Shown here in pieces: positions 6,876 to 56,397 of a stretch of 61,196 nt of DNA (position 1 is the first letter of the stretch; each line of letters begins with the position of its first letter). The stretch lies in the IMG/VR virus record IMGVR_UViG_3300034068_000558, positions 1 to 61,196 of that record, one strand, 5' to 3'. This stretch comes from a virus. The notes beneath the pieces were generated by a model. The model was not told the origin of the DNA. It was given only the letters and a program-made list of their open reading frames with translations, and did not search any database. The position numbers were made by a program, and so were the translations under genes.

Positions 6876-6885
6876 ACCATCCAGA

Positions 6886-7011
6886 ATGGACTTTTCTACA
6901 CGGGAGGAAAATCTGAAGAGTTTCTCAAACTAGTGTAATTCATAATAATTCAATAATTTATGGGTTTCAAAAAGAAATGAATTAATGAGTTAATATGAAT
7001 TACCTAAAGGG
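6886..7011. repeat. 126-bp dispersed repeat, copy A
   Basis: Aligns without gaps to 32535-32660 (about 109 of 126 identical). The first 51 bases match at 50, the last 33 at all 33, and the AT-rich middle 42 at 26. The conserved left part has CGGGAGGAAAATCTGAAGAG; the right part is ATTAATGAGTTAATATGAAT. It lies just after the terminase gene and ahead of the 7.4-23 kb rightward block. Candidate late regulatory site or origin. Confidence 0.85.
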
Positions 7012-21900: not shown

Positions 21901-23153
21901 GTGACACAGAATCACTAGGCAAGTTGGAAGTAATGGCCGCTCGTAAGGTTAAGCTTACGTTCCCAACCCACTCCGATCAGGCAAGCCTTGTTAAGTCCTT
22001 CAACAGGTCACCCTTTGCAATGCTTGTGCTTCCGTTCATTCGATGGAAGTCAGAAGTTCTTCGCACGATGTTCAACACGGTGCCCCTTGCAATGGAAGAA
22101 ATCAATTCCGGTAACGCAACAATTAAAGCTCGCGGCATTAAACGCCTAGTCGGTTTCTCCTCTACCATATTAGGAGGGGGCACTGCTTTCGGTCTTGTGT
22201 TCGGGACTTTGTTTACTCTGCTTGCTGGTTCCGGCGACGACGAAGACAAGGATAAACAACTAGGTCGGGTGCTTAGTCGTGATGAGATGGGTGCCCTACG
22301 CGAAGGACTGCCTGAGTGGCAGAGGAACCACGGTGTGTTCGCCCGATTGGTTGGCAAGGATGGGGTTCAGGTCATTGACCTATCAAACATCCTACCCTAC
22401 AGTCAGCTTACTGATGTGTTTAAACTCGGTCTAGGCGGTGACGCTAAGGGCATCGCACAGTATCTAGTCAAGGATCTTATTGGCACACAGATCGCAGCGG
22501 GTACTCTCATTGAAGCCGCCAACAACACAGACGATTTTGGTAATCCAATCGTAATGCAATCTGATAATGCCCTGGCTTCTTTCGTGAAGCTTAGTAGTTA
22601 CGTAGGTAAGAACGCCTTCCAGCCCTCGGCGTATAAAAAACTAAAAGATATATTACGTTACGGGCAGCAAGATGCGACGTTGCTTATTGCTGGAGAACTT
22701 ACAGGTGCAAGACCTATGGTCCATAAACTTTCGGACATTGAGTACAGGGCAATGAATAAGATCAAGACTACGATGGATGAGAATGTATCTATGCTCAGTC
22801 CGCTGTCTGCCGCGAAAGCCTTTGACCCGAAGGAGGCTGAAGCACTAATAGACAAACACCAGACGGCTTCGAACACTACTCAGAAACGCTTGTATAACTT
22901 CATGCAGAACATGAAGTCGATGGGGTCAACCGAAGAGAGCTTGTTGCTTACTGGTGACAAGGTTCGCATCAGTGAGTTGCGCCTATCCAATGCACTCATG
23001 GGCCGCAATAGCCCTTGGATTCCAAACGCTGCGTGGTTTAACAAACTAATTCAGAACAAAGAAAGGGGCGGGGAACAAGATCCCAACCCCCTAATTGATG
23101 AGGTCGTCAGAGTTGTGAGCAATAAAGCTGACCAATCCTTAACGACTTATTAA
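9969..23153 (+). CDS. Giant (4394-residue) virion/ejection polyprotein with zincin motif
   Basis: One uninterrupted frame covering over a fifth of the genome. Seen: Gly/Ala-rich hydrophobic stretches near residues 515-540 and 775-790; a Glu/Pro-rich linker near 1400; long charged helical segments around 2270-2600; a complete zinc-protease motif LLHELIHAA with His2766, Glu2767 and His2770; a second related site VDEELAHLASY near 3240-3248 in which the first His is Glu; and a Gly-rich membrane-like segment near 4062-4087 (GGGTAFGLVFGTLFTLLAG). The C-terminal region with FPTHSDQASLVKSFNRSPFA resembles the ends of other very large phage internal or polyvalent proteins. Presumed packaged in the capsid and ejected with DNA to form a conduit or act on the host. 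Individual domain roles are unassigned. Confidence 0.75.
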   Translation: MLEIKSYDDWTDTEEELQAEPVENLKRYANYVRSGYYKAGMLNEDNEKEIIYGVKERAYSDGLITGAMSKEEQDSYISTIVGPSQNADANARFVLDHLRTGSESGIDPKDTKVSTLSSYLAFKQAAPDQPSDLQPLVDELLSDTALIKRAKMSAVDRGEYSVAAIDEDDGGRSLYTGPTAKPDSIKGEVDSLLASGALSPSDLYRVDKAVSPINGGLSNTSENFRYEMFRRTVSTLAKTDKDLGDLIESSASKTREEKLAEQRTTGESVWEGVKTAVAYPFLKLADVVEFAGDFVTGEEDVAPAFKPETKVSDALAENDEIRKKFSAEEIEKFSADLTTTAAGAPYRADRPESGVSSDSMGNIIIAPQLLANKQLFETAVTAAPLNAEQQTQARAERKVLLTRSAPELLRVILEEEPEAVGALAKAKASGLSNEQFIEQWVSTPQNYDGFNARLEQFGKSAWKTVAEIPVGIAALSGNEWAAKYLGGLAKDQARREEYSRLFGDEFGVGFQIINAVPQVAADIGLTIGTGGLFAGAKTLVKTASLSSRSLLRASTKFALSNVDEAATLAYRGAAVAGGEANIGSAIQKIGASLATNFAEQAPVFTTAFVRSASSTYGSLYSQLPDTLSHEEKHKNALGYSLAAGLSTGVITAGMGFLGRGGVEEIATKRVRAMLAGETDESILASGAKVVPVDKMNYRQAKQVYENLKNESRIVSDATFQKAMRGAIGSTYKNWLRTTLKGGLNESIEEAMDQGIQMKLEDASLDKETPLAQRVSQVFTAGLIGGTMGGAMGGATQFGKVKKSEMALVYEGRASALDNVVKDLRKNNSGVTADFVERMMDDARAKANAATQADVLAQTTAAKAKETEATANVKEKPVVPIDTFLQAFFGKPKEAAVEQPETTTFLNDLIGESVSVGQFSGTLEMADDGENVRLKLDKPYKQKGGDPVTHMGLGPRLQKAEGYITKYPTLMRTGDDVFGVKAGTPYFLVGSTKEKFAARPLADGVTVDDRFTVLRDDEGVVRSITIKDAVSLKNGKISMPVSLTGAFILRAFAKEYGIDVSTQAPAPEGQQQFSFAEGEIKDTEPPVEEEAAKGTEGQMEFDLDRTPEQQATQAVFDRFDSEIADLKEKIKDPSINDVRRERLQDRLKGLQKARRNYDSETIQMGALSPDEQARYNSTDVEWNAKLDLIRNAYDVNPNVAEATKRILAAPLRNKIGSTIAFGDLDYDTLEAVRDMADDIISFANDEDNQVSDKVRSQTLSFYSNLLSRIDIAREFIDERDIDLIKQELENEDFRVTQQLQKPEPKPYPVTNTLHYLISKGKLKTVDIVAGLEAEGAGESLTRMTLTGFKYFPVEREIEFTDADGNVIYFPLGSVDVSSKEIQKKLAQNEVKAKEFIKQEKLAAKATNKTPELEPESEEEAEPEAPLDERVTGFLNLVNDYVNKFNELNSRVTLLKRSKTDQARVKDELKALRAGANNAIKEELTSLVGEIKSRNDLQEDLRSEMIDQISVSIFGKGGFTPVSGSRAQFGKIIEPSLAFKTTAVDYPADRFRSGTQEEALFNLLVGAGQVVNLPTTGATIAAATSMYTTSNGLIKRPAFSEAVVEQVTEEGQEVARPNSYIRDKNNLLRERVHKAYPPLGSIQYKAEGPQGTKVNPKLEAQLRSKQVELSNIKTKAEAKGYDASDKIAVLSKEIAELKKQVKDVPKYKIGRDSYDMVRSQDVTDLFYPVTVYEINGETKTFGVFTNDIEITRAQIARGLHIVIPPNFKGVLNPAIHVAQDGVTVDGYYEPLRDSFVPMGQFRSKLDTRRNSGEEPIDKTRATKYDARAELLVNNMVPPMINRDYESRTSGLIQTVFDGAKRFLYSNAFSPTPDAKLPLTTKGIEDAASDALIDFTSQLNEFLLARHIVTKVIGSLDWKNKIKSQEGQELITRALGGNSSDINFSDLPKELRRLLIKEDSGNLTDAVKGTNLSRYVREMFNGLDDATIAKNIVKMDIGFGGGDPTSIMTGYGMYLFQNATSIQGSFFTVPNPREYLVRTKAIGDKTVKVLGKDFSTIANKHAKRERAEAEELPSISIDAIEEAFGGDFEFSELIGAGARPDWQILLDATQRQKEMGLSLSDYTDNSFNELFEILVSANGHVFNDRGSMLASELMAAVKGDKELGKTFRDIAKMVGLDTPAELAKISDEFLINVLSKKISDDALFKTNNGYAGIVMSQLSETEVGQRAAGLMILKGWLPPVMIEGKRVPLRAPAERISKAPAAPPTPPNASPVGFVIREKAKEVSAAEATGGYVTTIEEAEAYEANKNVALARVADTIVKLGEEKAIALQTIEEARNHISSGFKMLKAVIQPEAGENVLELAKNDFWTNSATVSSVISDFTREQIATIADEISSLEVKLSNYEKLQKAGQKGRNKDLSRIDRQIKKYVKALADPRLPDDSDEKTIFSQKYDELNSLKYHITFNGQFVIDGLNSSISLKQKEIDRINKAVGNGATVLDNVINDIESSLQQLNDNRDYISRLSDKSKSVVDNEIKHVEYLMGLPEWKSLAVATANHPAALKFKADLTLEQRSRVDKYNTSLKVKQDYDAFAAQQKENLRAALVANGVGIFNSGLLTTYVDPVDVVRPEFFEEETTPRPQAEIDESVRLFAQAISPARPTNRKSIDFALSTLDPSLREAARQENTRMMNELGLVSGDSDSILRALSVLSNRGTAQQQAIVSILSAAPDLIRSVNIGIVDMQAGFAGLYDKSNNTILLNLSEHNGRGLADVLLHELIHAATVRVINNPTTAQQRVAVQRLEQIRNFALAAAVKKGTDTDPTMQLGLSTVEEFVTYALTAPEFMSLLNGLTKPQERTIIRRMIDAVLSIFGFEPKSRQQTSNAIDELLDFTKMSLAHSNTFNMDARWASTLRNEPSENAKASNITRLKSAQKIQQTLRNVAEDSDTILFAGGRAKPITLLSNTEEIDAQVRFTPEERSRWASLRKAAIQEFETNVDIAVDKLDEPDPDEADAWKGIKPVQEITRIEDAWRNEINGIIKRAGVDVAALNQRFEDRMARLRRGNLTQLEVNEFNLSLLPQTFFFTGPYPMMDMGQDTPKSRIDLSVAMPIMGRGEDFEAGLASLYKALAPSLRSSDVEHRVAASRFIKAYIEAFAPEEQIEKARKAFTEVDRTLYVRGSEGKGQGTVDAISEIQRILPEGITLEFDNTMLGQLGARRTRPNSIIVNPDTVNDLVYNLTPANARSAVRTFVDEELAHLASYRTFTEDDFVSIAAGMGESMRNLVADMLYSNSESDFAKRQAMIAADLESGALRESDIAAEWVRSEMTRIAVGRSREENLSFLRTNPSLLAKFVEAVRAFMTKLKAQFAINPTASTAAKISMASREFRSLRNGGVLPAPEPSTAGEMGDVTHFINAVEGNVVEGQEDRTEFDLPIASTNPSKVAAFWEKATQKMYDMPLELRKYVSQRDGTISNIEYTMWDFAKKYPKLRDAALNAGVAIDDIGTILGTTAPAVQGEARKELQRQVRQFKADNAEDPNLERMAEDYEEKLTQPIADQFYAEFRKNQKAVEDQLRAKGFSALVDYLVEFRQEINKVKAIINFDDTNDVYLTRTFSYFTTEGWSLAAKSGGVIEIDGKTVDFSKLRAAAATHFEWEVLNDAKNEGQTLTEDQVARKTLEALDKYLIKLDTEAKQSKESGTMNTIKRDVNRLLRKKDFDEPLRELLGEVTDPFENAVRTIYSVGRLAANDRFLRGFARQAIKSELASKEPKDGMVLLFPPSENAELGDLAGLYVRSDVAAAIRQELGPKNRDQETRSMEIMNNFGRMVSKVSGVSVVTQTLGSVGFYPRNILGGMALSTAQGIINPIYMREAAKLAIRANLLASDSQETRDAIRRLTELQIVRDETRGRMAMDMFRGFAATTDEQLEELLNDIVEAQASGNIDKIAKKLNIKKEVLSKAGSVVDILAGFNNIIDSAFKINAYMYELDTLKAAYGDTESLGKLEVMAARKVKLTFPTHSDQASLVKSFNRSPFAMLVLPFIRWKSEVLRTMFNTVPLAMEEINSGNATIKARGIKRLVGFSSTILGGGTAFGLVFGTLFTLLAGSGDDEDKDKQLGRVLSRDEMGALREGLPEWQRNHGVFARLVGKDGVQVIDLSNILPYSQLTDVFKLGLGGDAKGIAQYLVKDLIGTQIAAGTLIEAANNTDDFGNPIVMQSDNALASFVKLSSYVGKNAFQPSAYKKLKDILRYGQQDATLLIAGELTGARPMVHKLSDIEYRAMNKIKTTMDENVSMLSPLSAAKAFDPKEAEALIDKHQTASNTTQKRLYNFMQNMKSMGSTEESLLLTGDKVRISELRLSNALMGRNSPWIPNAAWFNKLIQNKERGGEQDPNPLIDEVVRVVSNKADQSLTTY

Positions 23154-23211
23154 GTAGTTAACTATATCCAATAGGAAACAAACTACAATCCACAGGAACC
23201 AGCCCCCGATA

Positions 23212-23249
23212 AGGAGGAAGCAAAGTATGCCCATTACTTTGCCCCTCCT
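23212..23249. terminator. Bidirectional hairpin between convergent genes
   Basis: AGGAGG-AA-GCAAAGTA, a 7-base loop, TACTTTGC and a CCTCCT-containing arm form a long stem just after the giant gene. The stem contains the stop codon of the leftward gene at 23234. No strong T-tract, so termination is inferred from position and stability. Confidence 0.55.
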
Positions 23250-23422
23250 CTAGCTGCTTGCATTGTGAGTAGTGCTGCCTGCATTGCCTTGAGTTCTTTG
23301 GTTGATCGCTCGTTGAACCAACGCATCATCTGGCTTTTCTCTGCAAACTTCTGGTGGGGCGATGCGTAAGTCTTCTTGCTAGCAATTGAAGACGTAAAGG
23401 AATCTAGTTTCTTTGTAGTCAT
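23234..23422 (-). CDS. Small basic hypothetical protein
   Basis: 62 residues, basic and helical (SQMMRWFNERSTKELKAMQ), with no cysteine. It overlaps the preceding gene as ATGA (23419-23422). Last gene of the leftward island. Function unknown. Confidence 0.55.
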   Translation of the reverse strand: MTTKKLDSFTSSIASKKTYASPHQKFAEKSQMMRWFNERSTKELKAMQAALLTMQAARGGAK

Positions 23423-23637
23423 TTGAGTTTTAGTTTAGTGCCGAAGTTGTTTACCTTAACGGTCCACTTGTTACTGCGCCCGTCGTGTCGATCATGCCCA
23501 ACCATGATGTGTCCGTTGTTCATCTCAAGCTGTATACCACACGCGCAGTTAAGGTCGGCGGTATGGTGGTGGCCCGTATCCTTAAACGGTATGCTGTGTA
23601 TCTGACTATTGTTATGGTGTGCTTTCGTTATCTTCAT
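23419..23637 (-). CDS. His-rich small hypothetical protein
   Basis: 72 residues from ATG 23637, chosen because an A/T leader (TAAATATAATACA) follows the upstream stop. The protein has many His (KAHHNNSQIHSIPFKDTGHHH) and a C-x-C pair (NCACG), which suggests metal binding. The C-terminus is a basic beta-like stretch ending KLKLK. Function unknown. Confidence 0.55.
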   Translation of the reverse strand: MKITKAHHNNSQIHSIPFKDTGHHHTADLNCACGIQLEMNNGHIMVGHDRHDGRSNKWTVKVNNFGTKLKLK

Positions 23638-23650
23638 TGTATTATATTTA

Positions 23651-23941
23651 TTAGTCGTTGAGTTCATCAAGCTTGATAGCCCCGTCGATGTAGCACTCAA
23701 GCTCATCGCTCAGTCTAGCCATGTGGCTGTCGGAGAACCCGTCATTGGGGAAGTCACATGCTGTGATGACCGTATCAACAAAGACACGGACAACACGGGC
23801 TAGCTTCAATGCGGGGGACTTGACTGACAGCCCGTTGATGTATGCCGTTACCGTCAAGCCGTGTCTGCCTTCTTCGCAGCACACGTTGATGACCGTATGG
23901 CCTGCGTCAAGTTGAGTATATTTTGTTTTTGTGTTGTTCAT
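23651..23941 (-). CDS. Hypothetical 96-residue protein
   Basis: ATG at 23941 after a leader without Shine-Dalgarno sequence. The N-terminal half is beta-like with a Cys pair (VINVCCEEGRHGLTVTAY). The C-terminal half is an acidic helix (MARLSDELECYIDGAIKLDE). Followed 13 nt after its stop by the His-rich gene. No family recognised. Confidence 0.55.
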   Translation of the reverse strand: MNNTKTKYTQLDAGHTVINVCCEEGRHGLTVTAYINGLSVKSPALKLARVVRVFVDTVITACDFPNDGFSDSHMARLSDELECYIDGAIKLDELND

Positions 23942-23971
23942 ATTGTTATGGTTGGGTGGGAGTTGATGGGA

Positions 23972-24655
23972 TCAGAGCGTGCGGAACTTGTCAAGGTGAT
24001 TTAAAGCGTCACCTACTATTGTGTCGATGGTCCCATAGGTATCGTATATATCTAGTATGCGTTTACGCTCCTCGACATTAAACGAATTGATTAGTTTTAC
24101 CATAGCGAGCAGGGGATTATCAATGGTCGTGCGCTCGCACACCCATCTAATGAGATTGGTGGATGCAAGGGTGTTCCTTCTATTATAGCAAAGGCCTATA
24201 AACGAATTGTCTTGTGACCTACCCGCAATCATTAGTCGCTTTGTCATATCATCATCGAGGGGGTCTATGCCTACTGTATCAATGCCGTATGCAATTGACA
24301 CAGTAGGCACTGATACCAAGTAGGTAGTAAGTAGTGGTGAAGGGGTGCGGCTGTATAATCGGAACGGGTCATTGGCCCCCAGCAATTGCTTAGCTAGCGG
24401 AGAGTATATTGATAAGGGTCCCACCCATCCACGTTGTAAGAATACAACTTGATAGCCTTGTACCTTAACAACATATGAGTCTAGCCCGCCGCAATTTTTT
24501 TGTGCCTTAAACATACTAATAACAAAGTCAGTAAGGCGAACAGCGGAGTCATCTCCGTTCACGATATCTCTCTGCCACTGCAAGATGTCTTGCGTGATTT
24601 CTTCTTCGCTATTGATCTTATATTTATCTGTAAAGTTTCTCTTAAGTTTTTCCAT
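23972..24655 (-). CDS. Hypothetical 227-residue protein of the accessory island
   Basis: ATG at 24655 with leader AAAAAATATAATACT. No recognisable catalytic motif. The middle looks beta-rich and hydrophobic (GYQVVFLQRGWVGPLSIYSP) and the C-terminus helical. The leader carries a 30-base element (24680-24709) that recurs before the DUF3150-like gene, hinting at shared control with that system. Confidence 0.55.
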   Translation of the reverse strand: MEKLKRNFTDKYKINSEEEITQDILQWQRDIVNGDDSAVRLTDFVISMFKAQKNCGGLDSYVVKVQGYQVVFLQRGWVGPLSIYSPLAKQLLGANDPFRLYSRTPSPLLTTYLVSVPTVSIAYGIDTVGIDPLDDDMTKRLMIAGRSQDNSFIGLCYNRRNTLASTNLIRWVCERTTIDNPLLAMVKLINSFNVEERKRILDIYDTYGTIDTIVGDALNHLDKFRTL

Positions 24656-24679
24656 AGTATTATATTTTTTAGTGTTGGT

Positions 24680-24709
24680 GCTCCAGCTATGCGGTAAGCT
24701 ACGCAGTGG
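24680..24709 (-). repeat. 30-bp leader element, copy 1
   Basis: Matches 27133-27162 at 27 of 30 positions. Shared core on the plus strand is CGGTAAGCTACGCAGTGG. Each copy lies in the 5' leader of a leftward gene. Confidence 0.7.
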
Positions 24710-24714
24710 TTTGT

Positions 24715-26157
24715 TTACAGTTCGGTGATGGCAAGAGCAGTGCCGACCTTGAAGTCAGAGGCGGGCCGCTGAGTGGTTAGCCAGAGCAGGGGGAAGTCTA
24801 CTTGTGGCAGTGATGTCAGGTCGCTTGACCACCCGTCAGTCAGGTACACCATGACATCCATGTCGTAAACGTGTTCGGCTACCCAGTCGAAGGCGGGCTT
24901 GAACGCTGTGCCACCCCCACCCTTCAGCCTGTCAGGCACTGTGTCGCCTGTCTCAAGAGAGACGACATCGGCTACGACATGGGACACAGACAGTAGGTGC
25001 AGACGCTCCGGCTTGAGCTCGTCGAGGATGCACTGCGCTTCTTGCAGGAAGCGGTCATACGTGCGCTGTCCGATTGAGCCGGAGGTATCAAGCACCAGCA
25101 CGATCTCACCTGCCTTCTTGTTACGCCTGCCTGCACCCACTACTCCTGTTGTGGAATAGACCGGAGCATTGAACGGCGCGTCCCATCCGCAGCGTGAACG
25201 ATTGGTGAGCCACTCACGCAGCAGGTCGGGCCAACCTAACGTCGAGCCGTAGCCACGCTGGCTACCGACACGTTGTCCGGTAGATCCGCCGCTCGCTTGC
25301 TGTCTCCTATCAATCTCGTCAGCTATTAGGATACGGTCGTTGTCCTCCTCAATCTTGTCGATTGCTTCGGCTTGTGTCTCACCATCCTCTGCTTCCGGTT
25401 CGATGTTGTCTGGCGAGCCAGTACCTACGAAGTCGGACAGGTCATCGTCATCGGGGGAACTACCCGATCCATCATCAGCATCGTCACTCCCTGTATCCTC
25501 ACCGCTATCAGAGTCTTGCTCCTCTTCTCCTGATTCGGAAGGCGTGTCCTCTTGCCCTTCAGAATCCTTATCCTCGTCGCCATCATCTGCTTGCTCATCG
25601 TCGGTATCGTCGTCGGTATCGTCGGGGTCTTGGCATGTATCTTCATTGGTTTGTTCTGGATTAGGTTCTGGTTCTGGTTCAGGGGGTTGCGGCTTAGTCA
25701 ACTCACGGTAGAGTTGCTCAGCGGACTTGTCACCGGACAGGGCTTCGTCGAGTAGCACACCTTCGATGAAGGGGAACACCTCCCGCTTGAGCTCACGGTT
25801 ACGCATCGCGATCATCGCATTGATGACGTAGTCCGCTGCGACGTTGGCAAGCGTGGAGTCCTTCAGCTTAGCCAGTCTCCAGCCGTGGCCCAATAGGGCG
25901 TGCAGTGCCTCATGCACCAGCAAGAAGGCAATGAGTCCCGAAGGGTTGGGTTGGCGGCATAGCTTGGCGATGCCCTCCTTGTTGAGCAGCAGGCGGCGAC
26001 CATCCGTTGCCCCGTATGGGATAGCGGTTGACCACTCCCACTCCATCGACATGAGCTTGCTGTATGCGAGGAACCAGTGGCGACTGACGCTACGCATGGC
26101 AGCGGCAAGCGGATGTTCCGAAGGAAACGATGTTGGATCTATTGTATTTGATTTCAT
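24715..26157 (-). CDS. VWA-domain metallopeptidase-like protein (CobT/DUF2201-like)
   Basis: 480 residues. The N-terminal region has a zinc-protease helix VHEALHALLGH (His82, Glu83, His86). Residues about 157-270 are a very acidic Glu/Asp/Ser linker. The C-terminal von Willebrand A domain has the MIDAS motif DTSGS at 357-361 and a later LTDGWSSD. This arrangement matches DUF2201-type predicted metallopeptidase plus VWA proteins, which usually pair with MoxR/CobS-like AAA+ ATPases; one lies two genes upstream. Expected role is an ATPase-driven adaptor or chelatase-like module. The substrate is unknown. Confidence 0.8.
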   Translation of the reverse strand: MKSNTIDPTSFPSEHPLAAAMRSVSRHWFLAYSKLMSMEWEWSTAIPYGATDGRRLLLNKEGIAKLCRQPNPSGLIAFLLVHEALHALLGHGWRLAKLKDSTLANVAADYVINAMIAMRNRELKREVFPFIEGVLLDEALSGDKSAEQLYRELTKPQPPEPEPEPNPEQTNEDTCQDPDDTDDDTDDEQADDGDEDKDSEGQEDTPSESGEEEQDSDSGEDTGSDDADDGSGSSPDDDDLSDFVGTGSPDNIEPEAEDGETQAEAIDKIEEDNDRILIADEIDRRQQASGGSTGQRVGSQRGYGSTLGWPDLLREWLTNRSRCGWDAPFNAPVYSTTGVVGAGRRNKKAGEIVLVLDTSGSIGQRTYDRFLQEAQCILDELKPERLHLLSVSHVVADVVSLETGDTVPDRLKGGGGTAFKPAFDWVAEHVYDMDVMVYLTDGWSSDLTSLPQVDFPLLWLTTQRPASDFKVGTALAITEL

Positions 26158-26180
26158 ATATTTTTATTTAGGTTAGGTGG

Positions 26181-26199
26181 GGGAGGGGTCGGACCTCCC
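26181..26199 (-). promoter_or_regulatory. Leader hairpin with GGTCGGA loop, copy 1
   Basis: GGGAGG, loop GGTCGGA, CCTCCC (plus-strand reading) lies upstream of ATG 26157. The loop is the same as in the 28299-28319 hairpin, while the stem differs and stays paired. Confidence 0.6.
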
Positions 26200-26214
26200 G
26201 TTACAGGTTACAGG

Positions 26215-27096
26215 TTACAGTCCTAATGCTGCGAGCGTCTCGTCCGCTTTGCTGATTGCCTTGTCTGCTTTCGCGGCGATGACTGCCCGTTCATCTCTTG
26301 TCGGTATCCCGATTGGCAGTGCCGCTGCATCGGCGGCAAGTCTTACTACCTCATCGATCTCGGGCAGGTCAAGGAAGTTTAGATTCTTCACACGCTTTGC
26401 CTCCTCACGCAGCTTGTCAAACTGTGTCAGGTGCAGGCGGTCGGCGTTACGCATCGCATCGGTGAAGTCCTCGATCACTTTCTTGAGGTCACGAACAGGG
26501 CCAGCATGGGATACGCGGAAGTCCTCTTCGATCTGACGTTGGCTGTCTGCCCTTACCCGATTAGCTACCTCCTCGGTTAAGCCAGTGAGCACTGCTTCGT
26601 TGACGGACACCGGACGATTGATGACGGACAAGCGCATCGTGAACTTGCTCGCCACTTCCGTAGCAGTGGGGATGCTGACCTCGTTGGCAAAGCCAGCAAG
26701 CCTGCCCTTGATAATGCTAAGCAGGTCAGGATACGTAGCAAGGATGTCCTCACGAATCGTATCGAGCTCCACCATCGCATCATCGAACACGTTCTGCACT
26801 TCACCCACGTCCTTCACACGGAGGTAGAACCCGCCAGTCTGGCAGAGCATACCGAAGCGGCGAACCGCGACTCCGGTACGTTGCTGCAAGCTGATCGCCT
26901 TACCTACCGCCGTGCCCTTAGCGGCAAGGATGGTATTGTAAAGGCGAGCCGCATCCTTCTCCGCTCCGGCTGATGTGGTTGCACGGGCCGAAGCGGAGCG
27001 GTTGAGTGCGGTGGTTGCAGGTGCTGTCGTCGCATAGTGGCAGAGCACAAGGGATTGAGCGACCTTCAGGTTCAGGGATGTATTGGTTGTTGTCAT
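26215..27096 (-). CDS. DUF3150-like protein
   Basis: 293 residues, helical, with Ala/Thr-rich N-terminus and a conserved-looking FGMLCQTGGFYLRVKDV segment. Size, helical content and position directly between a MoxR-like ATPase and a VWA metallopeptidase-like protein fit the DUF3150 family (recalled, not searched). Members often co-occur with such pairs in phages and plasmids. Probably an adaptor or structural partner. Three direct copies of a TTACAGG-like heptamer overlap its 3' end (26201-26220). Confidence 0.6.
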   Translation of the reverse strand: MTTTNTSLNLKVAQSLVLCHYATTAPATTALNRSASARATTSAGAEKDAARLYNTILAAKGTAVGKAISLQQRTGVAVRRFGMLCQTGGFYLRVKDVGEVQNVFDDAMVELDTIREDILATYPDLLSIIKGRLAGFANEVSIPTATEVASKFTMRLSVINRPVSVNEAVLTGLTEEVANRVRADSQRQIEEDFRVSHAGPVRDLKKVIEDFTDAMRNADRLHLTQFDKLREEAKRVKNLNFLDLPEIDEVVRLAADAAALPIGIPTRDERAVIAAKADKAISKADETLAALGL

Positions 27097-27132
27097 AATG
27101 TTACTGTCTATTTTGTTTTGTTGTTAATGAAC

Positions 27133-27162
27133 GCTTCAACTATACGGTAAGCTACGCAGTGG
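27133..27162 (-). repeat. 30-bp leader element, copy 2
   Basis: Second copy of the element at 24680-24709 (27 of 30 identical). It sits between the palindrome at 27165-27183 and the DUF3150-like start. Confidence 0.7.
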
Positions 27163-27164
27163 AA

Positions 27165-27183
27165 AGTCAAGACGGTCTTGACT
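27165..27183. promoter_or_regulatory. 19-bp palindrome, copy 1
   Basis: AGTCAAGACGGTCTTGACT, a perfect palindrome around a central base, directly after the stop of the AAA+ gene. The same core occurs at 28388-28406 and 30962-30978. The length suits a dimeric DNA-binding protein; a short hairpin is possible. Confidence 0.65.
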
Positions 27184-28271
27184 TATCCGAGGATCAAGGC
27201 ATGGGACTTAGGGTGCTCACTCAACGGGATGCCCCTACGTTCAGCGGAACGGGCACCGAACTCGCGGATGTCGCCTCTGCATTTAAGCAGTAGCGTAACA
27301 AGCCAGTCGAACCCGCCACTGTGCACCGCAATCGGGATGTCCTTCACGCCCCTCGTTGCCTGACTCAAGCAAGCGGAGACAAGAGCGAACTGCGAGGCCG
27401 GATCATCCGGCACTGTGAACCCGTCAGGGTTAGCACGAAGGGCGGCGATGTCAGGCAGCTTGTCAACGTGCTGCAAGAATGCGAAGAAGGCTGAAGCGGC
27501 ACGGCCACCAATGCTACCCTTCACCGCCTTACGGTAGATGTCTTGTGCTGACTTACGGATGGGCTCAAGCAGTGCGACTGCCTCCCATGTCCGAGGACAA
27601 GGATGCGGTGCACCGTCGTAGGGCATGACGACAGGCGGGTTGAAGTGGTCAAGCCCATCGCCTCCTGTCGTGCCGAAGCGGAGGAATGCCGGAACGTGTG
27701 AGCCGCTTGCCACTAGCTTCGCTTCGCCGTCATACCAGTCGAGCCAGTCGGTTACGTTGGGGTCGAGCGTCACCTTGATGCATCGCTCGGTGAACGGGGC
27801 ATCCTCCACAGCGGAGCGGGTTCCGTCCTGTCTACGGTTAGTGGCACACACAACGAAGACGTTAGTGCCTAAGGTATGAGACCCCACCTTCCGGTTACCG
27901 GATGCAGGGTACAGGCTACGGAGCAAGGCTCTGACTTGGGGGTCGTAGTCATTGACCTCGTCGAGGAACAGGAGCACCGGACGGTCACCGACTCGATCAA
28001 GGGTCGGCCAGATTTCCGGTGCGGAGAACCATGCGTCCCTTGTAGCGGAGTCAGGCACAAGGTAGCCGACAGTTTCCTGCGGGCCCTGACCGTTGAGGTT
28101 AACGTCCCACACCTCACGCCCCATAGCGGGGCCGAGGACATTGCAGACCATTGAGGTCTTGCCCGCACCCCCTGATCCTACGATCATAAGGAAGCGGTTC
28201 ACCAGTAGCGCGGCCTCAGCAAGGGGCAGCAGTTCGGATGGGCGGATTGGATTGATGTTGTTCGTTGTCAT
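27183..28271 (-). CDS. MoxR/CobS-like AAA+ ATPase
   Basis: 362 residues. Walker A GSGGAGKTS at 32-40, Walker B LFLDE at 101-105, sensor-1-like VCATNRR at 141-147. MoxR/CobS-type ATPases remodel partner proteins together with VWA-domain adaptors; such an adaptor is encoded at 24715-26157. A T4-like cyanophage cobS homologue is a known relative of this class. The gene has its own candidate promoter and a GC-rich 5' leader hairpin. Confidence 0.82.
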   Translation of the reverse strand: MTTNNINPIRPSELLPLAEAALLVNRFLMIVGSGGAGKTSMVCNVLGPAMGREVWDVNLNGQGPQETVGYLVPDSATRDAWFSAPEIWPTLDRVGDRPVLLFLDEVNDYDPQVRALLRSLYPASGNRKVGSHTLGTNVFVVCATNRRQDGTRSAVEDAPFTERCIKVTLDPNVTDWLDWYDGEAKLVASGSHVPAFLRFGTTGGDGLDHFNPPVVMPYDGAPHPCPRTWEAVALLEPIRKSAQDIYRKAVKGSIGGRAASAFFAFLQHVDKLPDIAALRANPDGFTVPDDPASQFALVSACLSQATRGVKDIPIAVHSGGFDWLVTLLLKCRGDIREFGARSAERRGIPLSEHPKSHALILG

Positions 28272-28298
28272 ATTATTTTTGTTTCGTTTTGTTGGGTT

Positions 28299-28319
28299 GG
28301 CAGGGGGTCGGACCCTGCC
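28299..28319 (-). promoter_or_regulatory. Leader hairpin with GGTCGGA loop, copy 2
   Basis: GGCAGGG, loop GGTCGGA, CCCTGCC (plus-strand reading) between the candidate promoter and the AAA+ start. The predicted 5' end is close to the hairpin base, so it may cap the mRNA. Confidence 0.6.
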
Positions 28320-28326
28320 GGAGAGT

Positions 28327-28355
28327 CTTGTAATTCAGTTTGCTTTTGCCGTCAA
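28327..28355 (-). promoter_or_regulatory. Promoter for the AAA+ gene
   Basis: On the minus strand: TTGACG (28355-28350), 17 bp, TACAAG (28332-28327). This predicts a leader of about 50 nt before ATG 28271, unlike the leaderless late promoters. Confidence 0.5.
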
Positions 28356-28387
28356 GAATTTATTTCCAATTATTTCTGAGGTGGTTT

Positions 28388-28406
28388 AGTCAAGACCGTC
28401 TTGACT
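28388..28406. promoter_or_regulatory. 19-bp palindrome, copy 2
   Basis: AGTCAAGACCGTCTTGACT, directly after the stop of the amidotransferase fusion gene. Identical to copy 1 except for the central base. Confidence 0.65.
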
Positions 28407-29428
28407 TAGAAGCAGTCGGAATAGATTCCGGTATCGTTCATGTGTGTGTCGCTACGGGAATCCGGTATCATGTAAACCCATGCGGTTACCGTGCCACCCT
28501 TAATGAGTTGCACCTGTATCTCTTTGCGCTGATACCAATCGGGATGCCCCTCTAAGGAATCCAGACGGGCAAGGGTTGCTTCATCCACACGGTAGACCTC
28601 GACACGCACACGCTTGCCAACCCCCTTTCTGTCAATCAGGTAGGGCAACCCGTCGATCACTAGAGGGTAAGCGGTAGCGGTGTATGCGTCGCCTAGGCAA
28701 TAGCTCCTCTCAAGCAGGCGGTGATTGCCGTGCCCGCTCTTAAGGGTTCCGTATACGGCGACACTTACGAGCTTGCCGGATGGGGGTTCCGGTACGACAG
28801 TTATGGGGTCAGACCAGTCATCCTGTTCATCCCACCCATACTTACCCCACGCTTCCCATGTTTCGTACTGCTCATCCTCATCCGCCTCTACGCCACTATA
28901 ACTTGTCTTGTATGTAGCGGCGGAAAGACTTCTCTTCTCTGTTGGGAAGCAGTTGGCCTTGCTGTAATGAATGCCGTCTCGGATAGCCCACAGATCGTTA
29001 TTGATAATGGTGACTTGTCCGTTACTGCGATTGAGTAGGGCGAAGCGGCACGCATACGTTGTCAGTATGTCAACGATCTTCGGCTCGCTTAGTCCGTTGA
29101 GTATCTTGCAAAGCTCGACCGTATCGACCGACTTCTTAGATACCAGCCTGTCAATAGTCCCGTTCATCATGAGGGAGAACGTGTCGTCAATCGGGAACGG
29201 GTGACAGTTCGCTTCAGTGACAGGCCCGCTTGTGGCATACCTGAAGTGTGCTGTGAACGGCCTGCCTGTTTCAAGCAGGTCGTAACTCTCATCCCATGAC
29301 ATCGTATGTATGATCTCCTTCGTGTCATGGAAGAAGATACCGAACCCGTCAGGGTTAAGGCATAGGGCGTTGTCGAGAATCTCTTGCGAGATTTGTTTAG
29401 CTTTCGGATTGTGTATGATAAGGCACAT
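28406..29428 (-). CDS. Class II glutamine amidotransferase fused to gamma-glutamylcyclotransferase-like domain
   Basis: 340 residues. After Met1 comes Cys2, the expected N-terminal nucleophile of class II amidotransferases. Further amidotransferase boxes are HFRYATSG at 61-68, CHPFP at 75-79 and MMNGTI at 87-92. An acidic Trp/Tyr linker spans about 180-215. The C-terminal domain carries YGTLKSGHGNHRLL from 226 and SLEGHP with the likely catalytic Glu293, as in AIG2/GGCT proteins that split gamma-glutamyl amides to 5-oxoproline. The neighbouring amidoligase suggests the pair makes and edits a glutamyl amide bond. The exact substrate is unknown. Confidence 0.82.
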   Translation of the reverse strand: MCLIIHNPKAKQISQEILDNALCLNPDGFGIFFHDTKEIIHTMSWDESYDLLETGRPFTAHFRYATSGPVTEANCHPFPIDDTFSLMMNGTIDRLVSKKSVDTVELCKILNGLSEPKIVDILTTYACRFALLNRSNGQVTIINNDLWAIRDGIHYSKANCFPTEKRSLSAATYKTSYSGVEADEDEQYETWEAWGKYGWDEQDDWSDPITVVPEPPSGKLVSVAVYGTLKSGHGNHRLLERSYCLGDAYTATAYPLVIDGLPYLIDRKGVGKRVRVEVYRVDEATLARLDSLEGHPDWYQRKEIQVQLIKGGTVTAWVYMIPDSRSDTHMNDTGIYSDCF

Positions 29429-29461
29429 AATGTATTTGTTTTCTATTGTTTAGGTTGGGGT

Positions 29462-29486
29462 CTTATTCCGTTGGTTACGGAATAAG
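29462..29486 (-). promoter_or_regulatory. CTTATTCCG hairpin 1
   Basis: CTTATTCCG, 7-base loop, CGGAATAAG: a perfect 9-bp stem between the amidoligase stop and the amidotransferase start. Confidence 0.65.
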
Positions 29487-29495
29487 GTTTGTTGT

Positions 29496-30809
29496 TTAGA
29501 TCCACTGTTGGATGGATTGGTCAGCAACACCGTCGAGCATCCAGACACGGAACTTGCGGGCCAGTCTTAATACCCTTGCATACTTCATGCGGTCGGTCCC
29601 ATACGCCCCGTTCAGCAGTAGCTGGCGGCACGACTTGACATACTGGTTGAACGTCAAGCCGTCTCGGATGGCGCGGCATGTCTCGCCAGCCCATTCGAAT
29701 CGGCGTATCAGTTGCTCACAACTATGAACACGGGACGGAAGGCGGAGTTCAATCCCGAAGGACTTCGTAATGACAGGCGAGTACTTATCGGTGCCGTGCT
29801 CAATCTTCTTGTCATTCCGGCAGTAGCTATTCACTAGCCGGTGACGATAGACCGCATACCATAGCGGGGCATACTCACGGAACCCCTTCATCAACTCTCT
29901 CGGCGAGTGGCTGGTCGAACTGATATTGATATGCCCGCCGCAGGTTGAATCACAATCGGCGTTGATATAGTCTCTCGCATCGTTCACGTCAACCCTGAAC
30001 GACTCAACCTTGTCAGGGTCAAGCGGATCATAGGCATGAGTAATGCCCTCAATTCCGCATGACGCATCGGTTTCCCAGTATGCGAACAGATTGGTTTCGT
30101 CTATGCGGTCGCCCTCGGAATCTGCCCCCATCACACTAGTCTTCTCTACCTCAAAGCCAACGGCAAAGCCGCTGCCGTTGAAGTCGCTATAGATGTTCGG
30201 GCTTATTCCGCTACGATGGTAAGGGAACACCCTATCCAGCGACTGTGGCTGGCAATCCTCGCACTCGGACTCTTCACCAAATACATGCTCGGCGGATGAA
30301 GGGCAATAGTGACAGCGGGATTCGTGATACCACTCGCCGCCGCTACAGTAGTAATAGTCCTCGTCACCCTCTAAGAAGGTATTACCGTCGCCATCCACCC
30401 GCAGCAAGTCTGCCGAATCCAGATAGTACTCCCCGCAGTATGCGGTCACATCTGAAAGGTGCTCTGTCGTCTCACTATGCTCACAGTAAACGGTATACCG
30501 TGACTCGGAGTATACATCCGCTTCGTCGCAGTACTCAACGTCACCATTTTCCAATGCGAGGTCTAACTGGTCTTGTGTATGCCAGTCGGACATAGCCGCA
30601 GCCCAACGGCTGCGCGGGTTGCTGCATGAGTTGAACACCCTATGGCAATCCTCCTCCCTATGGCGTGTGCCATCTATAGTCTGGACAAGTTCGACGGCGA
30701 AGACTACGGCCTGCTGCCTGCCATAGCTAACCTCGAACTCAAACGGGACGCCGTCAAAGCGGCAAGTCATTCCATCAAACGCATTCACTAACTCTTGTGT
30801 TGTTTTCAT
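29496..30809 (-). CDS. Amidoligase (COOH-NH2 ligase) with zinc-binding clusters
   Basis: 437 residues. Residues about 90-190 carry repeated Cys/Tyr/acid clusters (YCDEADVYSE, YYYCSGGEWYHESRCHYC, CEDC), probably zinc-ribbon or treble-clef units. The C-terminal ligase domain has GFEVEKT at 218-224, WETDASCGIEG at 245-255 and CGGHINIS at 290-297. These correspond to the GxExE, DxSxxxGxE and CGxHxH blocks of the Amidoligase_2 family, glutamine-synthetase-fold enzymes predicted to join carboxyl and amino groups using ATP. Neighbouring GATase and GGCT domains match the contexts proposed for this family. The substrate, peptide or protein side chain, is unknown. Confidence 0.8.
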   Translation of the reverse strand: MKTTQELVNAFDGMTCRFDGVPFEFEVSYGRQQAVVFAVELVQTIDGTRHREEDCHRVFNSCSNPRSRWAAAMSDWHTQDQLDLALENGDVEYCDEADVYSESRYTVYCEHSETTEHLSDVTAYCGEYYLDSADLLRVDGDGNTFLEGDEDYYYCSGGEWYHESRCHYCPSSAEHVFGEESECEDCQPQSLDRVFPYHRSGISPNIYSDFNGSGFAVGFEVEKTSVMGADSEGDRIDETNLFAYWETDASCGIEGITHAYDPLDPDKVESFRVDVNDARDYINADCDSTCGGHINISSTSHSPRELMKGFREYAPLWYAVYRHRLVNSYCRNDKKIEHGTDKYSPVITKSFGIELRLPSRVHSCEQLIRRFEWAGETCRAIRDGLTFNQYVKSCRQLLLNGAYGTDRMKYARVLRLARKFRVWMLDGVADQSIQQWI

Positions 30810-30906
30810 ATGTTTATATAGCCTGTATCCTGTAACGCTTCGGCATACGTTACGCTGTTACTTTACTGGTGAGGTAACACGACTCACTTGCGGTTCAACA
30901 CGAACT

Positions 30907-30950
30907 GCCCTATGTCCTTATTCCGTTTGAGCAGAATAAGGACAACGGGC
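30907..30950 (-). promoter_or_regulatory. CTTATTCCG hairpin 2
   Basis: Nested stem: GCCC/GGGC outer arms, then GTCCTTATTCCG against CAGAATAAGGAC with one mismatch. It lies in the 5' region of the amidoligase gene. The remainder of 30810-30906 has a CCTGTATCCTG word at 30826-30836 and an AACG/CGTT hairpin, but no gene. Confidence 0.6.
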
Positions 30951-30961
30951 AATCAGCAAAG

Positions 30962-30978
30962 GTCAAGACGGTCTTGAC
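30962..30978. promoter_or_regulatory. Palindrome, copy 3
   Basis: GTCAAGACGGTCTTGAC, five bases beyond the stop of the 65-residue gene. Same core as the copies at 27165 and 28388. Confidence 0.65.
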
Positions 30979-30982
30979 TTTC

Positions 30983-31180
30983 TTACAGACGGATTCCTTT
31001 CGCCAATGCCGGCAGGTCGAAGGATAGGGTGGACAGGCGGGACGGCAACCATAAGCACAAGCCGCGCCCTAAGACGGGGATGGGCTTGTCTAACGCCCGC
31101 AATGCGGATGGGTTCTTCGCCATGAGATAAACGATTGCGGCGGTGATTTGTATTGCGTTGTCTATTCTATTTGATGTCAT
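30983..31180 (-). CDS. Hypothetical 65-residue protein
   Basis: ATG at 31180. The N-terminal half is an amphipathic or weakly hydrophobic helix (AIQITAAIVYLMAKNPSALRAL); the rest is Leu/Pro/Arg-rich. No family recognised. Flanked by structured intergenic elements on both sides like its neighbours. Confidence 0.5.
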   Translation of the reverse strand: MTSNRIDNAIQITAAIVYLMAKNPSALRALDKPIPVLGRGLCLWLPSRLSTLSFDLPALAKGIRL

Positions 31181-31204
31181 ATTGTATAATGCAGGTTACT
31201 TACT

Positions 31205-31247
31205 GCCCTATGCCCTTATTCCGGTGAACGGATTAAAGGCAATGGGC
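31205..31247 (-). promoter_or_regulatory. CTTATTCCG hairpin 3
   Basis: GCCC-TAT-GCCCTTATTCCG, 5-base loop, then CGGATTAAAGGC-AAT-GGGC. Same layout as the hairpin at 30907-30950. Confidence 0.6.
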
Positions 31248-31253
31248 AATGAG

Positions 31254-31292
31254 CCTGCATCCTTATTCCGTTGAACGGATTAAGGATGCAGG
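31254..31292 (-). promoter_or_regulatory. CTTATTCCG hairpin 4
   Basis: 17-bp stem with one mismatch: CCTGCATCCTTATTCCG, loop TTGAA, CGGATTAAGGATGCAGG. It follows the 31313 gene and may also terminate it. Confidence 0.65.
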
Positions 31293-31312
31293 ATGCAGGA
31301 TTCCGGTTAGGC

Positions 31313-31681
31313 TTAGGCTTTGGCGAGCTTGGCGGTGACGGCCTTCACTTGCTTCGCCGTTAGATCCTTTGGCATAGCGGCAAGCCACGCCGTGAATGCC
31401 TCGGCTTGTTTGTCTTTCTTCTCAGCGGGAGAAGCGGGCTTTCTTCCGGCACCCGCCGCCCGACGCCGGATTCCGGCATCGCGGAGGATGTCGCCTAACC
31501 ATTTGGTCGAATAGTCTAACCCCTCTCCGAAGGCAATGAATGCCTCAGCGAACTCCTTATCATCTAACGCCTTGTGGTCACTGCGCAGCGTGACGAGCGC
31601 GGCGACGAGTTTGCTCTCACCCTTGTGGACGGCGAGCATGAGTGGTGCAAGCGTGGCGAATTGGATATTATTTGTTTTCAT
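31313..31681 (-). CDS. Hypothetical 122-residue protein, helical with basic hinge
   Basis: ATG at 31681 with an A-rich leader. Two helical halves (residues 1-80 and 100-122) are joined by an Arg/Ala/Gly hinge (AGIRRRAAGAGRKPASPAEK). The C-terminal AKQVKAVTAKLAKA is basic and Ala-rich, as in small nucleic-acid-binding proteins. First gene of the leftward island. Function unknown. Confidence 0.5.
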   Translation of the reverse strand: MKTNNIQFATLAPLMLAVHKGESKLVAALVTLRSDHKALDDKEFAEAFIAFGEGLDYSTKWLGDILRDAGIRRRAAGAGRKPASPAEKKDKQAEAFTAWLAAMPKDLTAKQVKAVTAKLAKA

Positions 31682-31715
31682 ATCAGTCTATTTTTGTTTT
31701 GTTATTTGATTGTCG

Positions 31716-31741
31716 TCTTATTCCGCAGTGACGGAATAAGA
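31716..31741 (-). promoter_or_regulatory. CTTATTCCG hairpin 5
   Basis: TCTTATTCCG, 6-base loop, CGGAATAAGA: a perfect 10-bp stem upstream of ATG 31681. Confidence 0.65.
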
Positions 31742-32003
31742 ACCGCAGGGACTTCCCCGCTTCATAGACTAGGGAATAGACCCGTCCGCGCCCCGCCCTT
31801 GGATCATGCAGCAAGAACCCTGCATCCTGTATCCGGTACCAGTTAGAGGGGTTCAGGATACAGGATAGAGGATACAGGCTACGGGTGGGGGTCCGTGTTT
31901 TATGCGAGCTCGGTACCGATAGGTACTATCGTGAGAAAAAAATAATTGAGGTTGACGAAAGGGTGGGGAGTAGGCAGAGTAGAGCCCTTACGTGTAAAAT
32001 TAT
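31742..32003. other. Divergent intergenic region
   Basis: No gene supported. It contains several CAGGATACAGG or CCTGTATCC words (about 31826-31880), a perfect CGATAG-GTA-CTATCG palindrome at 31917-31931, and a weak rightward promoter (TTGACG 31952-31957, 17 bp, CAGAGT 31975-31980). It separates the leftward island from the rightward morphogenesis block. Confidence 0.5.
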
Positions 32004-32231
32004 ATGGATAAAAGCTACTACGACAGGAACAAGGAAGCTCGAAAGGAGTACCAGAAGGCGTACTACAACGCTAAAAAGGGCGAACTGCGGCGGAAAAGGG
32101 AGCTCGATGTGGAACTAAACCCAGAAAAGCAAGAGAAAAATCGAAAATATCAGCGAGAATACTACTTGACACACCGGCAAAACTTGTTGGAACGCAAGAG
32201 GTTACGCTACAATGACGCGAAAAGTGCGTGA
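32004..32231 (+). CDS. Small highly basic protein
   Basis: 75 residues, over one third Lys/Arg, with repeated Tyr (MDKSYYDRNKEARKEYQKAY). It resembles the basic Tyr/Arg-rich tails seen next to phage HNH nucleases, but no His-Asn-His core is present. Probably binds nucleic acid. Followed by a good intrinsic terminator. Confidence 0.55.
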   Translation: MDKSYYDRNKEARKEYQKAYYNAKKGELRRKRELDVELNPEKQEKNRKYQREYYLTHRQNLLERKRLRYNDAKSA

Positions 32232-32319
32232 AACCTGTATCCGGTACCCTAATTGCATAATCCGGCATCCCGATTGGGGTAAAAGTTGCATTACTGCAAG
32301 ATAAGACTTGCTTTTTAGG

Positions 32320-32349
32320 GCGTGTGTCGGTGTCGGCACACGCTTTTTT
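32320..32349 (+). terminator. Rho-independent terminator
   Basis: GCGTGTG, 10-base loop, CACACGC, then six T residues (32344-32349). Classical form, placed 89 bases after the basic protein gene. Confidence 0.8.
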
Positions 32350-32351
32350 GT

Positions 32352-32436
32352 GCTAGATCTAACATACATCTAGCAGGAAGGGGTCAGCTTGTTGAAAATA
32401 GTGAGCAGGAATTTCAACAAGGCGAGGCTGTCTCGC
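32352..32436 (+). ncRNA. Hairpin-dense segment, possible structured RNA
   Basis: Three further perfect stems follow the terminator: GCTAGAT/ATCTAGC (32352-32374), CTTGTTGAAA (32388-32397) with TTTCAACAAG (32412-32421), and CGAG-GCTGT-CTCG (32423-32435). No coding frame spans them. It could be a small RNA, a leader or a protein-binding region. The remainder to 32534 holds one CAGGATACAGG word and no gene. Confidence 0.4.
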
Positions 32437-32534
32437 GGACCGCAATCGCACCGCCCCACTCCGGCTTCAGGATACAGGATTCTGGCTCCATTTAGTAAGT
32501 CAGAAATTATTTGAGAGGACTTTTGGTGTTTTGG

Positions 32535-32660
32535 ATGGACTTTACTACACGGGAGGAAAATCTGAAGAGTTTCTCAAACTAGTGTTATTCAATATAATTC
32601 AATAATTCAATATAATTTTGAATAATTGAATTAATGAGTTAATATGAATTACCTAAAGGG
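32535..32660. repeat. 126-bp dispersed repeat, copy B
   Basis: Partner of 6886-7011, same length and orientation. The AT-rich middle contains repeated ATTCAAT words. A TTACCT-17 bp-TATAGT pair begins in its right end and extends just beyond it (32649-32677), a possible rightward promoter. Confidence 0.85.
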
Positions 32661-32723
32661 GAAAAGATATATATAGTATACACTAGCATTAATTCACATT
32701 GTAATTTTAATTGAACGAAATAC

Positions 32724-32752
32724 TTGACGGGGTTTGGGTTCCGCCCTACGAT
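32724..32752 (+). promoter_or_regulatory. Leaderless-type promoter for the 32760 gene
   Basis: TTGACG, 17 bp, TACGAT, then 7 nt to ATG 32760. The clearest example of the design. Confidence 0.7.
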
Positions 32753-32759
32753 CTTGCCC

Positions 32760-33317
32760 ATGCAAGAAGCGAAGCGATTACGACACGGCGATGCGCGAGG
32801 GGACGGTTTTGTGTTCTGGGGTTATCGGAACACTTGTCGCAATTCGGAGTATTGGGTTTCGCGAGAGAGATTTGATATTCTCCGACTTACCCAGACTACG
32901 AAATACCATGAGCAGAATCACCTTAGGGTGAAACATAAGAAACCCAAGAAGGAGCGGTTTGTCTCTGACCTGTTTCCGATACGCCGTCGCCGCAAGCCAG
33001 TCCGAAGAATAATTCAGAAAGAAATTGACAAGCTGCCCTTTGCCCCTATTTTGCCCCTCGACATGACTACCCCATCCGAACTCACCGTAATCCCGAACTA
33101 CTCGAAATATGCCATTGCCTTTGACGGCACTGTCTTCCGCGTTCTCCCTGCATCGAGAGGCCGTACTGCTGGCTTGACCCACCGTGTGACTCCCGTCATC
33201 CATCCGAGAGGCCACCAATGGTGTGTGCAGCTTACGGACGATGACGGCAAGCGTCGTCGGTTGCCCATCAAGAAACTCGTCAATAGCGTCTTCGGGGACG
33301 CGGAAACAATTTCTTGA
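32760..33317 (+). CDS. NUMOD4-like DNA-binding protein lacking an HNH core
   Basis: 185 residues from ATG 32760. The N-terminal part (GFVFWGYRN, then YWVSRERFD) looks like the small domain often attached to phage HNH proteins. A basic linker (KHKKPKKERF; RRRRKPVRR) follows. The C-terminal part, IPNYSKYAIAFDGTVFRVL and RLPIKKLVNSVFG, resembles NUMOD4-type modules that normally precede an HNH nuclease. The protein stops where the HNH core would begin, so it may be a binding protein or a truncated homing-type enzyme. Head of the morphogenesis block, directly before the portal. Confidence 0.55.
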   Translation: MQEAKRLRHGDARGDGFVFWGYRNTCRNSEYWVSRERFDILRLTQTTKYHEQNHLRVKHKKPKKERFVSDLFPIRRRRKPVRRIIQKEIDKLPFAPILPLDMTTPSELTVIPNYSKYAIAFDGTVFRVLPASRGRTAGLTHRVTPVIHPRGHQWCVQLTDDDGKRRRLPIKKLVNSVFGDAETIS

Positions 33318-40628: not shown

Positions 40629-40663
40629 GCTAAGGGGTATCCTTAAACAAGATACCCCTTAGC
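40629..40663 (+). terminator. Hairpin after the capsid gene
   Basis: GCTAAGGGGTATC, 9-base loop, GATACCCCTTAGC: a perfect 13-bp stem followed by TTCATCCTTT. The weak T-tract suggests partial termination or mRNA 3'-end protection. Confidence 0.65.
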
Positions 40664-56374: not shown

Positions 56375-56397
56375 TTTGGTATTTGGGCATAAAGAGA

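Follow-up and report, generated by a model that had tools for sequence, protein, structure and literature searches.

Repeated intergenic elements are already known in phages, while the readers of these elements mostly are not. In the early operon of phage T7, the intercistronic RNase III sites take the form of one irregular hairpin per gap. The promoters of the N4 virion RNA polymerase are also hairpins, in which the stem bases may vary but pairing is required (PMC4496689). T4-type phages possess PeSLs, described in PMC4503421 as composite promoter-terminator stem-loop motifs (Arbiol 2010; Comeau 2014). In the cluster K mycobacteriophages, the SAS contains a Shine-Dalgarno core (AGGAG) located 3-7 bp from the start codon, and the deviations found among ESAS copies generally do not support RNA pairing, providing little support for mRNA hairpins at these sites (PMC3203893).

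The window analyzed here (61,196 bases, a virus record from IMG/VR) contains a cluster of leftward genes extending from approximately 31.7 kb down to 23.2 kb that is probably an early or takeover operon. This cluster includes a first gene encoding a 122-aa protein, a 65-aa ORF, a 437-aa gene, a GGACT gene, and a gene for a MoxR-like ATPase showing distant kinship with the ATPases of N4-like phages, in addition to one gene with a weak match to DUF3150 and one DUF2201/VWA gene (Table 1). SD-like 4-mers are found upstream of only four of 57 genes and the leaders are A-rich, which fits a host group that does not use Shine-Dalgarno sequences. Scans of genome contigs with the ATPase and with the leader motif D described below gave no match by which a host could be assigned, and no cultured phage was matched by blastn of the region or tblastn of the portal-like protein. 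Scans of IMG/VR with the ATPase and the portal-like protein supplied the relatives, namely about 20 that are close and about 40 that are distant and of marine type (loci numbered with the prefix L). Outside of the cluster, a single ORF of 4394 aa occupies positions 9969-23153 of the window, and its similarity to phage structural proteins (PHROG 22602; Cellulophaga phages phi19:3, phi13:2, and phi18:3) is limited to the C-terminal part.

Hairpins and other repeats in the gaps of the leftward operon

The original prediction placed five related stems carrying CTTATTCCG in this part of the window, and every one of them is present at its reported position. Shuffle controls place these stems, which we term family A, far above chance: exact CTTATTCCG occurs eight times on both strands (mean 0.37 and maximum 2 in shuffles), 29400-31800 contains four perfect stems with 9 bp or more (mean 0.11, maximum 1), and the RNA folding z-scores of the five stems range from -5.2 to -8.6. 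The sequence and its complement were reported to be kept in all five stems, which is exact for both arms at 29462 and 31717 but not for the other three, where the second arm is CAGAATAAG, CGGATTAAA or CGGATTAAG. The outer GCCC/GGGC arms are indeed common to the stems at 30907-30950 and 31205-31247, each of which is part of a larger minus-strand element (A1) in which an internal loop separates the outer stem TTGCCC/GGGCAG from an inner stem. Four of the stems lie between leftward genes as described, provided that the 65-aa ORF is counted, but the fifth (31716) is located in the leader of the first gene. The DNA of this ORF is 83-84% identical to that of L016 and L017, where a 62-aa gene occupies the stretch. 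A sixth CTTATTCCG at 30202, found within a gene and possessing no partner arm, is probably a chance occurrence.

Table 1. Genes and repeat elements of the leftward operon, in window coordinates
Feature	Position	Strand	Score or basis
A hairpin in the first-gene leader	31716..31741	-	
First operon gene (122 aa, cluster 4), putative reader of the A hairpins	31313..31681	-	
A hairpin shortly 3' of the first-gene stop; outer arms CCTGCATCC	31254..31292	-	
Full A1 element in the 65-aa ORF leader; outer stem TTGCCC/GGGCAG	31197..31253	-	64.8 bits
65-aa ORF	30983..31180	-	sequence
B palindrome GTCAAGACSGTCTTGAC, directly 3' of the 65-aa ORF stop	30962..30979	-	
Full A1 element, upstream of the 437-aa gene	30899..30956	-	63.5 bits
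437-aa gene, no function assigned	29496..30809	-	
A hairpin in the GGACT leader; stem of 10 bp, outer arms absent	29462..29486	-	
GGACT (gamma-glutamyl cyclotransferase-like) gene	28406..29428	-	
B palindrome, leader of the ATPase gene; L016/L017 similarity stops here	28388..28406	-	
C hairpin in the ATPase leader; UCCGACC in the loop	28299..28319	-	
MoxR-like AAA ATPase gene	27183..28271	-	
B palindrome, 3' of the ATPase stop	27164..27184	-	
D leader motif	27125..27162	-	45.1 bits
C hairpin GGGAGGTCCGACCCCTCCC	26181..26199	-	
D leader motif	24672..24709	-	54.6 bits

The usual layout of a gap is a stop codon followed soon after by a hairpin, an A-rich leader without a Shine-Dalgarno sequence, and an ATG, with about 30-70 nt between the end of the hairpin and the ATG. 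The A hairpins keep a single orientation and a constant position relative to the stop and start codons, and of the 71 stems with 9 bp or more in 14 contigs, 58 lie between genes, compared to an expectation of 9.4. Rfam returned no matches in the window above the gathering threshold and nothing relevant in 23100-33000 at E-values up to 5.

The same gaps contain further repeats. One family overlooked by the original prediction, B, is a palindrome of fixed length (17 bp, GTCAAGACSGTCTTGAC) with three copies in the window; its centre base is C in 16 copies, G in 12, and T in one, some copies lie within genes, and its mismatches do not preserve pairing. Family C consists of hairpins with a variable stem and the loop UCCRACC, family D is a motif, TGCGTAGCTTACCGCATAGTTGNAGC, found on the gene strand shortly 5' of start codons, and family E is a second short hairpin (GTTCATA..) located 3' of A. 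Motif D is also carried by L003, L016-L019, L022, L023, L026, L027, and L030; it could form an H-type pseudoknot, and its stems, including the second, are nearly invariant, which makes covariation uninformative. Repeats of CCTGTATCC / GGATACAGG, frequently hairpins with the C-type UCCRACC loop, surround a divergent region of the window (30817-30836, 31819-31880, 32229-32248, and 32463-32480) and are also found in L003, L013, L018, and L022; adjoining this region is a small basic rightward ORF of 75 aa (32004-32231), a stretch conserved in relatives. Two other hairpins were seen elsewhere in the window. Between late genes, a strong hairpin at 40629-40663 (GCTAAGGGG...CCCCTTAGC) has similar forms in L039, L042-L045, and L047 and is perhaps a terminator, and between leftward replication genes there is a 16-bp perfect stem at 56397-56435 (ACCCTGCACGATAAAC) that falls outside families A-D.

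Within the close group, operon genes are preceded by 129 gaps with a length of 25 nt or more, 81 of which contain at least one of motifs A-E. Matches from a covariance model search with the A element were confined to this group, while D is also present in further contigs. The stem sequence is largely uniform inside one genome and different across genomes. Two marine lineages with about 55% identity in the portal-like protein have their own families with unrelated stems: TTAACAAC-TGA-GTTGTTAA in L064 (13 copies, 10 of 12 gaps) and GGTATA-ACCAAC-TATACC in L061 (11 copies, nine of 12 gaps), with all copies in one orientation and mostly 30-50 nt 5' of an ATG. Most other marine loci yielded no hairpin family at the threshold used. 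Together with L059, these two lineages make three distant marine loci with one-per-gap hairpin families of their own; their first genes encode proteins of 174-179 aa that are unrelated in sequence and carry the same short C-terminal motif.

Pairing, replacement, and the link to the first gene

To compare the A elements we aligned 24 distinct copies read on the gene strand. Under the A structure 93.8% of cells are paired and 11 of 23 pairs show double changes. The stem contains 66 double-change cells, compared to 19.2 in shuffles (none of 500 as high), and sliding the partner by 1-3 columns reduces this number to 1-8; the copies are related by descent, and these cell counts do not represent independent events. 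In some copies the inner stem has been fully swapped while the outer arms are conserved, with CTTATTCCG replaced by CTTATTCGG, CTTAGTTAG or CGTTAGCTAG and the partner arm following, and the outer stems likewise change from AGCG/CGCT to CGCT/AGCG. Deviations from Watson-Crick pairing on the mRNA strand are G.U in 55 cases and A.C in three, and at one column pair every one of the 24 copies has U.G; several of the copies beside the first gene have a deviant inner pair that is A.C rather than G.U on this strand. Loop lengths range over 3-7 nt, and variation of this kind would not be compatible with a rigid DNA dimer.

The covariation of A and the non-pairing deviations of B suggest that A is read as RNA and B as a DNA site, and we accordingly read B as a putative DNA palindrome. 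The A stems look like RNA leader hairpins rather than terminators, promoters, or operators. The proposal that they are RNA-level signals, either for processing or for protein binding, is supported by the compensatory changes, the preference for G.U over A.C, the fixed orientation, and the constant position. The hairpins had also been expected to recur in relatives with the same genes and to show compensatory changes, and here the outcome is divided: such relatives often have another leader family in place of the hairpins, but compensatory changes are found in large numbers.

The leader of the GGACT gene is of type A in the window and B+D in L019 and L003, and L023 has none of these elements there; the leader of the 437-aa gene is A+B, B+D or A+E depending on the phage. 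As orthologous genes possess different leader types, the signal is generic and not gene-specific. Leaders move with gene blocks, and leader sequences are among the few stretches that replaced blocks share. For example, L022 and L003 are 97.9% identical across the ATPase region and the block upstream has been replaced, with the D leader in the replaced block 100% identical across 73 nt. The similarity of the window to L016 and L017 stops at the B palindromes at 28406 and 30962. Of 76 block edges, 41 fall in intergenic gaps (11.8 expected) and 25 lie at most 25 nt from an element (7.3 expected), with no enrichment at elements beyond that of the gaps; these counts do not single out the elements, as opposed to intergenic gaps in general, as breakpoint sites.

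The repeat family changes together with the first gene. A hairpins are present in all eight phages with a first gene of the 122-aa type (cluster 4), with at least four in each. The five phages with a first gene of the 169-aa type (cluster 11; in L016 at 6408-6917) have none that fits the pattern used, although L019, a cluster-11 phage, has one A-related element with a different inner stem. B palindromes are present in all five cluster-11 phages, and among the eight cluster-4 phages they are found in the window alone. The window lacks the cluster-11 gene and has kept three B palindromes, as expected of a recent switch, and its nearest relatives are B phages. Mapped on a tree of the portal protein, the pattern takes four switches, and supported branches leave no alternative for three of these. 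Phages as closely related as 97% in portal identity have both different first genes and different repeat families. The split between A and the first gene has a probability of 1 in 1287, an arithmetic value that assumes independent genomes and applies to an association noticed after the fact among 13 genomes. The first gene and the leaders may travel as one block, and linkage alone could yield this association. L018 has both the cluster-4 protein least similar to that of the window (30%) and the most diverged inner stem.

The sequence T.EQ[ILV] occurs near the C-terminus of 10 of 16 first-gene proteins and three of 959 others, for a motif picked by eye after the data were in hand, and is common to four first-gene families without detectable sequence similarity. 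The N-terminal part of the 122-aa protein is confidently predicted to be helical. Foldseek found no significant match for the 122-aa or the 169-aa type, family searches with first-gene proteins returned nothing significant, and hhalign of the two families against each other gave a probability of 2%.

Possible functions of the hairpins

Sequence comparison establishes RNA-type pairing, position, orientation, near-uniformity, replacement, and co-switching with the first gene as properties of these stems. The switching of repeat type with the first gene suggests an operon-wide tag that is read by a phage protein, and the 122-aa product is probably the reader of the A hairpins, judging from this linkage. 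We give about even chances to the CTTATTCCG stems being intercistronic mRNA leader hairpins that provide a shared tag for a phage-encoded binding protein, with the first-gene product as the likeliest such protein. A cistron separated by a gap tends to have a module made up of the upstream stop codon, the hairpin, about 30-60 nt of A-rich leader, and an ATG without a Shine-Dalgarno sequence, by which each cistron could be translated and decayed as a unit and all cistrons would bear one shared tag. Binding of this tag by a phage protein, for which the small basic 122-aa product is the likeliest candidate, would allow this protein to autoregulate, as its gene is flanked by hairpin copies, and to control the operon post-transcriptionally. 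More tentatively, the system may be of a general type in which the first gene encodes a regulator whose C-terminal tail is shared and whose recognition domain changes rapidly, most cistrons have a cognate hairpin, and protein and hairpin are replaced jointly, such that the systems of related phages do not cross-react.

The strongest rival, and a serious one, is that the hairpins are generic mRNA stabilizers or insulators spread by recombination, for which any stable intercistronic hairpin would suffice to protect the upstream 3' end, or the downstream 5' end after cleavage in the A-rich leader; uniformity would result solely from leader recombination, and the transfer of blocks would account for the first-gene link. 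We would not favor this reading, though it is a definite possibility: stem sequences are interchangeable as long as pairing is kept, leaders have been swapped among orthologous genes, and whole blocks have been replaced with leaders among the few shared stretches. It does not predict the joint switching of A and the first gene (13 of 13 genomes, at least three switches) or the common C-terminal motif of the first-gene proteins, either of which could come from linkage or chance.

The hairpins could also be RNase III sites like those of the T7 early message, where cutting of an irregular stem splits the operon into single-gene messages. The A1 elements, with approximately 23 bp, an internal loop, and one copy per gap, have the general shape of the T7 sites, but many of the equivalent hairpins are just 8-11 bp (e.g., at 29462 and in L064), which is short for RNase III, and the uniformity of sequence is left unexplained; we regard this as unlikely. 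Less likely still is that they are DNA operators, i.e., palindromes to which a repressor dimer would bind, a role that has been proposed for the ESAS of cluster K mycobacteriophages. The B palindrome would suit such a role in its fixed 17 bp, both orientations of its centre, copies in genes, and non-pairing deviations, while the variable loop length, strong covariation, preference for G.U over A.C, and single orientation argue against it for A.

Hairpin promoters for an N4-type virion RNA polymerase are called to mind by the relationship of the ATPase to those of N4-like phages, by the 3-nt loops of the L064 hairpins, and by the variable N4 stem bases that nonetheless keep their pairing (PMC4496689). 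The loops here range over 3-7 nt, however, and the wobbles are on the mRNA strand and not the template strand. A virion RNA polymerase profile built from six Schitoviridae references found no match in the window or its relatives, which are partial contigs, and a motif scan of the 4394-aa ORF found no signal of this enzyme; with both searches empty this candidate was rejected as highly improbable. PF00940, the T7-like RNA polymerase family, likewise had no match, but neither did the control genomes, which makes this result uninformative. Intrinsic terminators and REP-type mobile palindromes, although many-copy intergenic hairpins may recall both, can be set aside for the A family with near certainty, and sigma-70 promoters are disfavored, as TTTT is found within 10 nt 3' of none of 44 A hairpins, intrinsic terminators show no excess over controls, sigma-70-type sites (a pattern that may not be the host's promoter type) number 7 versus 8.3 in shuffles, a Bacteroidota-like promoter pattern has no match on the gene strand of the island, and the copies, contrary to the mobile palindromes of the original prediction, are not scattered but are placed at gene junctions in one orientation.

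Should the hairpins be leader tags bound by the first-gene product, they would represent modular post-transcriptional control of a whole operon in phages that do not use Shine-Dalgarno sequences, with protein-hairpin systems that would not cross-react between related phages. The natural replacements have already done part of the experiment, in that they name a candidate reader and make the function of the repeats testable.

Comparison with described systems

The T7 RNase III sites resemble this locus in having one irregular hairpin per gap of the early operon, but here many of the equivalents are short and the stems are uniform in sequence within each genome. The promoters of the N4 virion RNA polymerase are similarly hairpins 5' of genes, and this phage has an N4-like ATPase; however, no such polymerase was found here, and the loop length and strand asymmetry do not match. 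The nearest known systems are PeSL and SAS/ESAS, and each fails at least one tested feature. The SAS/ESAS of cluster K mycobacteriophages are, like the elements reported here, repeats upstream of the starts of non-structural genes, with inverted repeats separated by a spacer of 4-13 bp and a consensus that differs by subcluster (PMC3203893). Unlike ESAS, the A family covaries, while the B family behaves in an ESAS-like manner; unlike SAS, the hairpins end approximately 30-70 nt upstream of the start codon, and SD-like 4-mers are scarce. PeSLs, as far as they are described in PMC4503421, share with this locus the repetition of intergenic stem-loop cassettes in variable regions. They are linked to gene shuffling in modules, and here leaders travel with gene blocks. 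Relative to that description, the A hairpins have no sigma-70 excess and no U-tract, and the hairpin family changes across genomes jointly with the first gene.
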